Assembly: GCF_900100875.1 (NCBI RefSeq)
Contig: NZ_FNKQ01000002.1
Coordinates: 186,001-250,000 of the forward strand
Source of the DNA: Halopelagius longus
Lineage (GTDB): Archaea > Halobacteriota > Halobacteria > Halobacteriales > Haloferacaceae
Length of the DNA: 64,000 nucleotides
Direction: 5' to 3'
Position 1 is the stretch's first letter. Every line of letters begins with the position of its first letter. The position numbers were made by a program, and so were the translations under genes. Below the pieces are notes generated by a model that ran no database searches, was not told the DNA's origin, and saw nothing but the letters and a program-made list of their open reading frames with translations. Of this stretch, positions 50,747-54,126 are shown one piece after another.

Positions 50747-51983
50747 ATGTCTCACGACAAGGAGGCTTCGTCGGATTCCCCGGCGGGTCGAGTTCTTCCA
50801 GGGCACACTAGCCCAAATTACTGAACCCGAAATTCAGAACGTACGGATTTTCGACACCACGCTGCGCGACGGCGAGCAGTCGCCACGCACCTCGTTCAGT
50901 TACGAGGAGAAGCGGGACATCGCGGCCACCCTCGACGAGATGGGGACGCACGTCATCGAGGCGGGCTTCCCGGTCAACTCGGACGCCGAGTTCGAGGCCG
51001 TGAGCGACATCGCCGCCGCCACCGACACGACCGTTTGCGGTCTGGCGCGCGTCGTCGACAAGGACGTGGAGGCCGCCCTCGATTCGGGGGTGGAGATGGT
51101 CCACGTCTTCGTCAGCACCAGCGACGTGCAACTGGCGGACTCGATGCACGCCTCGAAGGAGGAGGCCGTCGAGCGCGCAGTCGCCAGTGTCGAGCGTGCG
51201 AAGGAAGCCGGCGTCGAAGTCATGTTCTCGCCGATGGACGCCACGCGAACGGACGTGGAGTTCCTCGCCGAGATACTGGAGGCGACGGACGACGCCGGGA
51301 CTGACTGGGTCAACATCCCGGACACGTGCGGCGTCGCGACGCCGACGCGCTTCGCGGACCTGATTCGGACGGTCCGAGAGCACACGTCGGCGAAGATAGA
51401 CGTCCACGCCCACGACGACTTCGGGCTGGCCACCGCCAACGCGATGGCCGGCTTCGAGGCGGGCGCCTCGCAGGCGCAGGTGTCCGTCAACGGCATCGGC
51501 GAACGCGCCGGCAACGCCGCCTACGAGGAAGTCGTCATGGCCGCGGAGTCTTTGTACGACGTGGACAGCGGCATCGACACCACGCGCATCACGGAACTCT
51601 CTCGCATGGTCGAGGAGGCCAGCGACATCCCGGTGCCGGCGAACAAGCCGGTCGTCGGGCGCAACGCCTTCTCCCACGAGAGCGGTATCCACGCCGCGGG
51701 CGTCATCGAGAACTCGGACACGTTCGAGCCGGGCGTGATGACTCCCGAGATGGTGGGCGCATCGCGCGAGTTCGTCCTCGGCAAGCACACCGGCGCACAC
51801 TCCGTCCGCAAGCGACTGGAGGACTCCGGCTTCGTCCCGACGGACGACGAAGTCCGCGAGGTGACGCGTCTGGTCAAAGACTACGGCGCGGAGAAAGAGC
51901 GCGTGACGGTGGACGTGCTCACACGATTCGCCCGCGAGGTGGGCGTCGAGCGCGACGACGAAGAGGAGGAGGTTCGCGCCTGA
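50747..51983 (+). CDS. leuA: 2-isopropylmalate synthase, with apparent one-base frameshift near the start
   Basis: A HMGL-family enzyme that joins acetyl-CoA to 2-oxoisovalerate; citramalate synthase is the alternative. The active-site FDTTLRDGEQSP, the metal-binding HAHDDFG and GERAGNAAYEE are intact. The ATG at 50747 is in a different frame: read straight, it stops after 25 codons at 50824. Removing one C from the CCCC run at 50778-50781 joins the frames and gives a 411-residue protein with RRVEFFQGTLA before the catalytic core. No start codon exists in the catalytic frame until 50940, too late to include the active site. The C-terminal LeuA regulatory domain is absent. Confidence 0.85.
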
Positions 51984-52070: not shown

Positions 52071-52077
52071 TTGATAT
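52071..52077 (+). promoter_or_regulatory. TATA-like element before the ilvB leader ORF
   Basis: TTGATAT, centred about 30 bases before the ATG at 52104. It predicts a transcript that begins within a few bases of the leader ORF. It is weaker than the leuA box. Confidence 0.5.
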
Positions 52078-52103: not shown

Positions 52104-52214
52104 ATGCGACAGCAGGCCGTACTCGGTTCGTCCGCCCCCGCCGCCCAGTCCGTAGTGGCGGCGACGGACGACGTGGCCGCTGTCCGGTCGCTCATTATTG
52201 TAGGGGCTGCCTAG
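52104..52214 (+). CDS. Candidate leader peptide upstream of ilvB, 36 residues
   Basis: A small ORF, ending SLIIVGAA, between leuA and ilvB. Of 36 residues, ten are Val, Leu or Ile and ten are Ala. The last part reads CTC ATT ATT GTA, with rare ATT codons (ilvB itself has one ATT among about 26 Ile codons). The stop codon lies inside a perfect hairpin. A TATA-like element about 30 bases upstream would give an almost leaderless mRNA. The layout is that of a bacterial ilv attenuator leader peptide. No homologue search was possible, so translation is inferred. Confidence 0.6.
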   Translation: MRQQAVLGSSAPAAQSVVAATDDVAAVRSLIIVGAA

Positions 52215-52219
52215 CCCCT
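52202..52219 (+). promoter_or_regulatory. Perfect 7-bp hairpin over the leader stop codon
   Basis: AGGGGCT, loop GCCT, AGCCCCT. The leader TAG (52212-52214) straddles the loop and 3' arm, so a ribosome that stalls at the Ile-Ile-Val codons or reaches the stop would decide whether this hairpin forms. No T-run follows, so it is not a standard archaeal terminator on its own. Confidence 0.6.
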
Positions 52220-52285
52220 CACCTCACTTCTATCGACGGACTGCGCACCGCGTTCACAACACCCGACAACCACGAGTACCCAGTA

Positions 52286-52372
52286 ATGGAGCACCAGCAA
52301 CCCCACGCACGCGACCGACGGCGGACGTATCGACGACCGACCAGCCACTCCCGACGGGAGGCCGCGACATGA
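52286..52372 (+). other. Arg-rich 28-codon ORF overlapping the ilvB start
   Basis: A short ORF beginning MEHQQPHARDRRR, with nine Arg residues in 28 (and three His), whose stop codon TGA overlaps the ilvB ATG in ATGA. If translated it would couple to ilvB by termination-reinitiation. It may equally be chance in GC-rich DNA. Confidence 0.35.
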
Positions 52373-54126
52373 GCGAACACGCACCCCCCTCGCAGGACGA
52401 CGACGACGCTGCGTCCGGGGAAGCGGCCGACCGAACGCCGGTCACCACCGGCGCGTCCTCCGTCGTCCGCGCCCTCGAAAACGTCGGCATCGAAGCCGCC
52501 TTCGGCGTCCAAGGCGGGGCCATCATGCCAGTCTACGACGCCCTCTACAGTTCCGACATCCGGCACGTGACGATGGCCCACGAGCAGGGTGCCGCCCACG
52601 CCGCCGACGCCTACGGCGTCGTCCGCGGCGAACCCGGCCTCTGTCTGGCAACGTCCGGTCCGGGCGCGACGAACCTCGTCACCGGCATCGCCGACGCCAA
52701 CATGGACTCCGACGCGATGCTAGCCCTGACGGGGCAGGTTCCCTCGGACATGGTCGGGTCGGACGCGTTCCAAGAGACCGACACCACGGGCGTCACCGCA
52801 CCGATAACGAAGCACAACTACTTCGCGGGCGACGCCGACAGCGTCGGCGACACCGTCGGCGAGGCGTTCGCCCTCGCCGGGCAGGGCCGTCCGGGTCCGA
52901 CCCTCGTCGACCTGCCGAAGGACGTGACCCTCGGCGAGACGGACCGCGAACCCGGCCCGGCGGAGACGCCGGAGACGACGGCGCCTCAGATGGAGGCCGA
53001 CCCCGACGACGTGGAGACGGCCGCGAAGGCCATCGAGGCCGCCGAGAAGCCGGTGCTCCTGTTCGGCGGCGGCGTCATCAAGGGCGACGCCTCCGAGGAG
53101 GCCCGGTCGTTCGCAATCGACCGCGGCATCCCCGTGGTGACGACGATGCCCGGCATCGGGTCGTTCCCCGAGGACCACGACCTCTGTCTGTCGTGGGCCG
53201 GGATGCACGGCACCGGCTACGCGAACATGGCCATCACGCACACCGACCTGCTGATCGCGGTCGGGACGCGCTTCGACGACCGCCTCACCGGCGGCATCGA
53301 CACGTTCGCGCCGGAGGCGGAGGTCGTCCACGTCGACATCGACCCCGCCGAGATATCGAAGAACATCCACGCGGACTACCCCCTCGTGGGCGACGCGGGC
53401 CGCGTCATAGAGCAGATAGACGACGCGATGGAGCGCAGTCCGGACATCGCGGAGTGGCGCGACCAGTGTCGGACGTGGAAGTCCGAGTACCCGATGGACT
53501 ACGCGACGCCCGAGGACGAACCGGTGAAACCGCAGTTCGTCGTCGAGTGCCTCGACGAGGCCACAGACGACGACACCGTCGTCACGACGGGCGTCGGCCA
53601 ACACCAGATGTGGGCCGCGCAGTACTGGACGTTCACGGAGCCCCGGACGTGGGTCTCCTCGCACGGCCTCGGGACGATGGGCTACGGCCTCCCGGCCGCA
53701 ATCGGCGCACGACTCGCGGCGGACGACGACCGAGACGTCGTCTGCATCGACGGCGACGGGTCGTTCCTGATGACGATTCAGGAACTGTCCGTCGCGGTCC
53801 GCGAGGAACTCGACATCACCGTCGCCGTCCTCAACAACGAGTACATCGGGATGGTCCGCCAGTGGCAGGACGCCTTCTTCGAGCGTCGCCGCATGGCGGC
53901 CGACTACGGCTGGTGCCCCGAGTTCGACAAACTCGCGGAAGCGTTCGGCGCGCGCGGGTTCCGCGTGGACGAGTACGACGAAGTCGCAGAGACCATCGAG
54001 GCCGCACTCGACTACGACGGCCCGTCGGTCGTCGACTTCCACATCGACCCCGCGGAGAACGTCTACCCGATGGTCGCCTCGGGCGCACCGAACGGAAAGT
54101 TCGCTCTGACGGAGGACCAACTATGA
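52369..54126 (+). CDS. ilvB: Acetolactate synthase large subunit
   Basis: A thiamine-diphosphate enzyme of 585 residues, the usual length, which makes acetolactate or acetohydroxybutyrate for valine, leucine and isoleucine. The catalytic Glu is in AHEQGAAHAADAYG; the FAD/central domain has LLFGGGV; and the ThDP/magnesium motif is GDGSFLMTIQELSVAV ending with LNNEY. It is first in ilvB-ilvN-ilvC, preceded by 385 bp that hold the candidate leader peptide and hairpin. The stop overlaps ilvN in ATGA. Confidence 0.96.
   Translation: MSEHAPPSQDDDDAASGEAADRTPVTTGASSVVRALENVGIEAAFGVQGGAIMPVYDALYSSDIRHVTMAHEQGAAHAADAYGVVRGEPGLCLATSGPGATNLVTGIADANMDSDAMLALTGQVPSDMVGSDAFQETDTTGVTAPITKHNYFAGDADSVGDTVGEAFALAGQGRPGPTLVDLPKDVTLGETDREPGPAETPETTAPQMEADPDDVETAAKAIEAAEKPVLLFGGGVIKGDASEEARSFAIDRGIPVVTTMPGIGSFPEDHDLCLSWAGMHGTGYANMAITHTDLLIAVGTRFDDRLTGGIDTFAPEAEVVHVDIDPAEISKNIHADYPLVGDAGRVIEQIDDAMERSPDIAEWRDQCRTWKSEYPMDYATPEDEPVKPQFVVECLDEATDDDTVVTTGVGQHQMWAAQYWTFTEPRTWVSSHGLGTMGYGLPAAIGARLAADDDRDVVCIDGDGSFLMTIQELSVAVREELDITVAVLNNEYIGMVRQWQDAFFERRRMAADYGWCPEFDKLAEAFGARGFRVDEYDEVAETIEAALDYDGPSVVDFHIDPAENVYPMVASGAPNGKFALTEDQL

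Follow-up and report, generated by a model that had tools for sequence, protein, structure and literature searches.

A Conserved Ile-Val Leader and Hairpin Upstream of ilvB in Halobacteria, a Candidate Ribosome-Mediated Attenuator

The leuA-ilvB Region of Halopelagius longus

The window, that is, the whole 64,000-nucleotide stretch of Halopelagius longus DNA analysed here, carries a cluster in the order leuA, leader, ilvB, ilvN, ilvC, a small ORF, leuC, leuD, and leuB, with gene names assigned by sequence similarity and order. The host family also includes Haloferax, Halobellus, Halorubrum, and their relatives. The leader sits in the gap between the end of leuA (51983) and the start of ilvB (52369), and its parts all lie on the forward strand, as does ilvB itself (52369-54126), which encodes the acetolactate synthase large subunit and is the first gene of the ilvBNC-leuCDB cluster. 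A TATA-like element, TTGATAT (52071-52077), the putative leader promoter, stands 27-33 nt 5' of the ATG of uORF1 (52104-52214), whose 36-residue leader peptide MRQQAVLGSSAPAAQSVVAATDDVAAVRSLIIVGAA ends in SLIIVGAA. Near its end, the codons CTC ATT ATT GTA (Leu-Ile-Ile-Val; 52191-52202) run into the 7-bp hairpin AGGGGCT-GCCT-AGCCCCT (52202-52219; MFE -12.5 kcal/mol for the short segment), and the TAG stop codon of uORF1 (52212-52214) is inside this hairpin. Directly behind it comes a G-free, T-enriched tract, CACCTCACTTCTATC (52220-52234), a candidate termination site which in the window copy has no T-run of four or more. Farther downstream, uORF2 (52286-52372), with 28 amino acids (MEHQQPHARDRRRTYRRPTSHSRREAAT), overlaps the ilvB start in an ATGA and holds the Shine-Dalgarno-like GGGAGG of ilvB (52356-52361).

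A sequence-only reading of this DNA had described the 36-codon ORF with its four final branched-chain codons, the hairpin enclosing the TAG, and a TTGATAT about 30 bases before the ATG, all of which hold. Its count of isoleucine codons in ilvB (about 21 ATC, 4 ATA, and 1 ATT) is matched exactly by our recount, which also gives no GTA for this gene. In the seven operon genes together, GTA makes up 2 of the 229 valine codons (0.9%) and ATT 7 of the 92 isoleucine codons. One distance needs correcting: the hairpin was placed seven bases past the second ATT, and it lies 3 nt from it, starting at the A of GTA. The conserved uORF2 is absent from that reading.

Distribution and Conservation of the Leader

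When the regions upstream of ilvB in relatives are compared, the short ORF with branched-chain codons recurs along with a covarying hairpin, in the comparison that the sequence-only reading had proposed. In all 80 named haloarchaeal loci, an in-frame leader with Val-Gly-(Ala/Val) and the hairpin is found 5' of ilvB, and Ile precedes Val in nearly all of them (L230 has Val-Val). Of 391 Halobacteria genomes, 212 contain an exact match to the commonest form, GTAGGGGCNNNNTAGCCCC, mostly once or twice per genome, and the reversed control gives almost no matches. Where the exact pattern is missing, variants such as GTAGGGGTATAACCCC, GTAGGGGCATAGCCCC, GTAGGGGCCTAAGCCCC, and others take its place, and these are present in most Halobacteria families. 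Among 20 genomes sampled from families or genera without the exact pattern, 17 have a variant leader. Two copies were recognised on inspection: GTAGGGGCGTAAGCTACCCC at L388, and at L384 the diverged GTACGGGCCGCGATGGCCC, whose stop codon lies past the stem. The sole clear absences in this sample are the deepest families of the Halobacteria, f5 and f11, in which ilvB lacks this leader; at L400 no leader was found in a locus near the contig end. Outside the Halobacteria, there are no matches in 53 genomes, a weak absence since the pattern also misses variant copies within the class (G119 and G121). A second copy of the element is found 5' of valS, the gene for valyl-tRNA synthetase, in many Halobacteria.

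The conservation set contains 207 distinct copies (184 before ilvB and 23 before valS), and thinning to flank identities below 70% leaves 111. The leader element is thus conserved and not due to chance. The small size of uORF1 and its hairpin is the only point in favour of reading both as accidental, and against this number of distinct copies, thinned or not, such a reading has a negligible probability.

Reading Frame and Sensor Codons

An ATG-opened frame leads into the GTA in 204 of 207 copies, as opposed to 46 and 5 in the other two frames. The codon before GTA encodes Ile in 179 of the 184 ilvB copies (ATT 139, ATC 40, ATA 0) and in 93 of 98 in the thinned ilvB set. In the valS copies this position is never Ile (0/23), and Val is frequent nearby. 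Two codons before GTA, mostly Ile, Arg, or Gly are found. The sensor had been described as Leu-Ile-Val; what is conserved is Ile-Val with an obligatory GTA, and the Leu is not. Likewise, the suspicion that the ATT pair was unlikely to be fortuitous stands for the element as a whole, with GTA rather than ATT as the rarest and near-absolute codon. The invariance of GTA among the copies is not independent evidence, because most of them were retrieved with a key that included GTA-GGGG. However, a control search from which GTA was excluded, with any H-N dinucleotide substituted for GT before the hairpin, returned only 5 matches in 292 genomes, and this confirms that GTA is near-obligatory.

Codon content follows demand: the ilvBNC product serves the synthesis of Ile, Val, and Leu, and ValS needs Val alone. 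Judged by its sequence, the element can hardly be accounted for unless ribosomes sense Ile and Val charging through it. Translation of uORF1, stalling at Ile-Val, and masking of the hairpin by the stalled ribosome would follow from this anatomy, and we consider this sensing half of the model highly probable.

The Hairpin and the Tract Behind It

In 207 of 207 copies, GTA is followed at once by a perfectly paired stem of 4 bp or more. Pair counts were anchored on the hairpin, since loop length differs among copies. Since the first four pairs are nearly constant, the evidence for covariation comes mainly from the fifth and sixth. The fifth pair is C-G or T-A and is Watson-Crick in 106 of 111 thinned copies when 86 are expected; none of 20,000 shuffles reaches the observed count, in a test that relatedness inflates. 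Coding does not explain why the 3' arm is conserved, as this arm is placed at the stop codon or past it. In three loci from Natronolimnohabitans and Halopiger (L268, L279, and L292), the stop codon has moved 3' of the hairpin, so that the peptides end in VGALSPHF, VGAPTPRL, and VGALSPLI, yet the stem is kept and is one pair longer (GGGGCG/CGCCCC). This indicates that the hairpin, and not the position of the stop, is under selection. The leader region as a whole shows only weak structure (mean z -0.9).

Over the 16 nt that follow the hairpin, G falls to about 4% and T is enriched. At least three T in 6 nt occur at +6 to +24 after the hairpin in 90 of the 111 thinned copies, compared with 12 of 111 at +45 to +63 and 13 of 111 inside the leader. 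It had been stated that no T-run follows the hairpin; there is indeed no long one, and no bacterial-type U-run, yet relatives carry this G-free, T-enriched tract in its place. A non-exhaustive search found no mutually exclusive antiterminator hairpin.

Promoter, Spacer, and uORF2

Across the 207 copies, an AT-rich 7-mer box lies mostly 32-34 nt 5' of the leader ATG, which places the transcript start probably at or just before this ATG. Such spacing is consistent with a leader transcript that is leaderless or nearly so; for Haloferax volcanii, 72% of protein-coding transcripts are given as leaderless (PMC4983044).

The spacer between the hairpin and the main gene ranges from about 95 to 620 nt and is unstructured (mean z +0.2). 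At its end, 122 of 146 ilvB loci have an ATG-opened uORF2 in the +1 frame whose stop meets the ilvB start (ATGA), whereas the other frames give 11 and 1; at the valS start, the corresponding counts are 14 of 23 loci and 0. A Shine-Dalgarno motif precedes uORF2 in 1 of 136 cases, and that of the main gene is found inside uORF2 in 76 of 136 under a strict definition. A long-range pairing suggested by folding the window, between CATTATTG in the leader and CAGTAATG at the uORF2 start, was rejected because it is not conserved. More generally, the sensor region does not pair specifically with the start of uORF2: the mean duplex energy is -13.0, while swapped loci give -11.8 and other windows of the spacer -13.9. 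In the valS loci of family f4 (L354, L357-L367, and L155), there is a near-invariant block, CCCCGTTTCGACGGATGTATTGTCG(G/C)CGACC, about 10-40 nt past the hairpin; its flanks are variable, and it includes the uORF2 start in several valS loci.

A Model for the ilvB Leader

We propose that the leader is a ribosome-mediated attenuator which senses charged Ile- and Val-tRNA and whose output is transcription termination, a function that we hold to be likely on balance. The leaderless mRNA would begin at or a few bases from 52104, and uORF1 would be translated at once behind RNA polymerase. When Ile and Val are ample, the ribosome would pass ATT-ATT-GTA, reach the stop codon, and leave. The freed hairpin would then fold and, with the G-free, T-enriched tract, would stop most transcripts before ilvB, in a termination that may be driven by the hairpin or assisted by FttA/aCPSF1. 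A shortage of charged Ile- or Val-tRNA would make the ribosome stall on ATT or on the rare GTA. The stalled ribosome would then occupy the 5' arm, the hairpin would not form, and the polymerase would continue into ilvB. On the longer mRNA, uORF2 would be translated and would pass its ribosomes on to ilvB via termination-reinitiation at the ATGA. Comparison of the loci establishes the promoter position, the frame, the codon identities and their agreement with the downstream gene, the covarying hairpin, the T-enriched tract, and uORF2; translation, stalling, termination as the output, and the direction of the response are what we infer from the arrangement of these parts.

Termination is the preferred output for three reasons: the T-enriched tract adjoins the hairpin, the distance to the main gene is not fixed, and a hairpin and T-stretches are known to end Haloferax transcripts. 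In H. volcanii, transcripts end at T-stretches, and one hairpin assayed in vivo terminated 59% of them (PMC7237163). U-rich RNA is bound by FttA, which, on one published hypothesis, a coupled ribosome would exclude (PMC11616081). The range of spacings, from close to distant, also fits a terminator better than a local masking of the ilvB start. Against termination count the missing U-run of bacterial type, the lack of a T-run of four or more in the window copy, and the failure of our search to find an antiterminator.

The sequence-only reading had favoured a translational attenuator. The conserved, amino-acid-sensing leader that this supposes is strongly supported, but transcription termination fits the anatomy at least equally well, and we found no conserved pairing that could conceal a start codon. 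With the same sensor, stalling or ending on uORF1 might instead set the supply of ribosomes to uORF2, ilvB being translated only by reinitiation from uORF2, through a GCN4-like switch or exposure of the uORF2 start. Conservation of uORF2 means that control at the level of translation plays a part too, and it may be the actual output: uORF2 ends on the main start in 122 of 146 ilvB and 14 of 23 valS loci, against 12 and 0 for the other frames together, and it lacks a Shine-Dalgarno motif of its own (1/136) while enclosing that of the main gene (76/136, strict). In Haloferax, moreover, ATGA gene pairs are coupled by termination-reinitiation, and Shine-Dalgarno motifs are reportedly not used at 5'-UTRs (PMC6728339 and its reference 27). 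What speaks against this output is that the sensor does not pair specifically with the uORF2 start, that the spacer is unstructured and highly variable in length, and that the T-enriched tract is left without a role. Translation control through uORF2 is the main rival to termination, one that we regard as rather unlikely, and the two outputs could also operate together.

Explanations without codon sensing fare less well. The conserved C-terminal I-V-G-(A/V) would suit a nascent peptide, IIVGA at its end, that arrests the ribosome in the exit tunnel through its sequence rather than its codons. However, the valS copies have no Ile and differ in the upstream residues, those after VG are dictated by the stem sequence, and the remainder of the peptide is variable; the rare codons GTA and ATT are kept though synonymous codons are common. 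Such an arrest is very improbable. It is also improbable that uORF1 encodes a small conserved protein, or that the hairpin acts constitutively on mRNA stability, with no sensing of amino acids, as the N-terminal two thirds of the peptide are unconserved in both sequence and length and the codon content tracks the downstream gene.

Cognate-Codon Leaders at Other Genes

The ilvB leader is not the only short ORF with cognate codons in these genomes. Most genomes sampled in the host family have, before pheS, a short ORF containing GFGFFF toward its end, and the copy of H. longus itself (L180) ends in GGFGFFSRTD. At loci L167-L194, the GFGFFF-type ORF is 110-270 nt 5' of pheS and is accompanied by a T-rich stretch that resembles a promoter. 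The second type of trpS has a short ORF with WRWW, WRWR, or WRW (L196, L197, and L199-L201; own copy MVSTSHANCWRWHASREVDSIAV). Its Trp codons occupy the loop of a stem. The arms of this stem vary between species and pair nonetheless (GTCCACTTCCC/GGGAAGTGGAC as against CCGCTCCC/GGGAGCGG); at L198 the arms are kept, and no ATG-started leader was found. These ORFs are probably Phe- and Trp-sensing leaders, respectively. They have the cognate-codon principle in common with ilvB; the ilvB hairpin is absent, and their own hairpins are arranged differently. With them, the principle of a cognate-codon leader looks general in haloarchaea. In the genome of H. longus, valS, leuS, ileS, and metS have no such leader. 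The trpCBA operon has no Trp leader.

A different arrangement is seen at leuA (50747-51983), where the promoter-proximal ATG opens MSHDKEASSDSPAGRVLPGHTSPNY, and LeuA is encoded in the +1 frame without a start codon. The out-of-frame ORF is found in 54 of 54 readable loci, 42 of which have no in-frame ATG, GTG, or TTG, and it surrounds a conserved CGGGTCGAGTTCTTC. A programmed +1 frameshift close to CTT, a rare Leu codon, may account for this arrangement. In H. volcanii, HVO_1510 has been flagged for possible ribosomal slippage and a link to leucine (PMC8305020).

Comparison with Known Systems

The bacterial ilv/leu attenuators (E. coli ilvGMEDA and ilvBN, and Corynebacterium ilvBNC with the ilvB-II motif) share with the archaeal layout a short branched-chain ORF before ilvB, codons directly before a hairpin, and the logic of tRNA charging (PMC10272879). 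Unlike them, the haloarchaeal leader has a TATA promoter, an apparently leaderless mRNA, a single hairpin that contains the stop codon, no U-run, no antiterminator that we could find, an obligatory GTA, and a uORF2 coupled to ilvB, and it also occurs before valS. No sequence relation between the two was found. As in trp/ilv-type systems, a short ORF with cognate codons stands immediately before a hairpin, and the sensor codons change with the regulated gene; we speak of a likeness to bacterial leader-peptide attenuators and do not claim membership of that class, as a G-free, T-enriched tract stands in place of a bacterial-type U-run, a non-exhaustive search found no antiterminator, and the response itself is a prediction. 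Bacterial synthetase leader peptides of the E. coli pheST type also carry cognate codons in a short leader before the gene. The leaders of valS, pheS (GFGFFF), and trpS (WRWW) share this feature and differ from them in their archaeal host and RNA anatomy.

Two further observations come from Haloferax. Transcription start mapping in H. volcanii lists transcribed uORFs with mapped starts before the synthetase genes trpS (HVO_A0127) and pheS (HVO_2948); Table 2 of that study makes no mention of cognate codons, hairpins, or attenuation for them, and it does not list ilvB or valS (PMC4983044). The overlap between uORF2 and ilvB is of the same type as in the ATGA pairs coupled by termination-reinitiation, with stop and start overlapping in both; there, however, the upstream partner is an ordinary gene, and here it is a short ORF in a regulatory leader (PMC6728339). 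With the 4227 covariance models of Rfam 15, the window region gives three hits, all far below the gathering score, and eight related loci give none. The sequence-only reading knew of no peptide-based attenuator for archaeal amino-acid genes, and our search of published open-access papers likewise found no archaeal peptide attenuator. According to a paper from 2021, archaea have no known mechanism of transcription attenuation or antitermination (PMC8448881).

Conclusion

Taken together, these leaders lead us to suggest, tentatively, that attenuation may be general in haloarchaea. Termination by the archaeal RNA polymerase and FttA could be governed by the translation of leaderless mini-ORFs whose codons suit the gene behind them: Ile-Val at ilvB, Val at valS, Phe at pheS, Trp at trpS, and, at leuA, perhaps a +1 frameshift under the control of Leu. 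This broad proposal is quite possible, and we would not yet insist on it. If it is true, this would be the first demonstrated transcription attenuation in archaea, and it would provide functional evidence for transcription-translation coupling there. A codon-matched leader in tractable genera such as Haloferax makes it testable whether archaeal coupling is tight enough for gene regulation, and also how archaea may sense their amino-acid supply without known T-boxes or trp-type attenuators.
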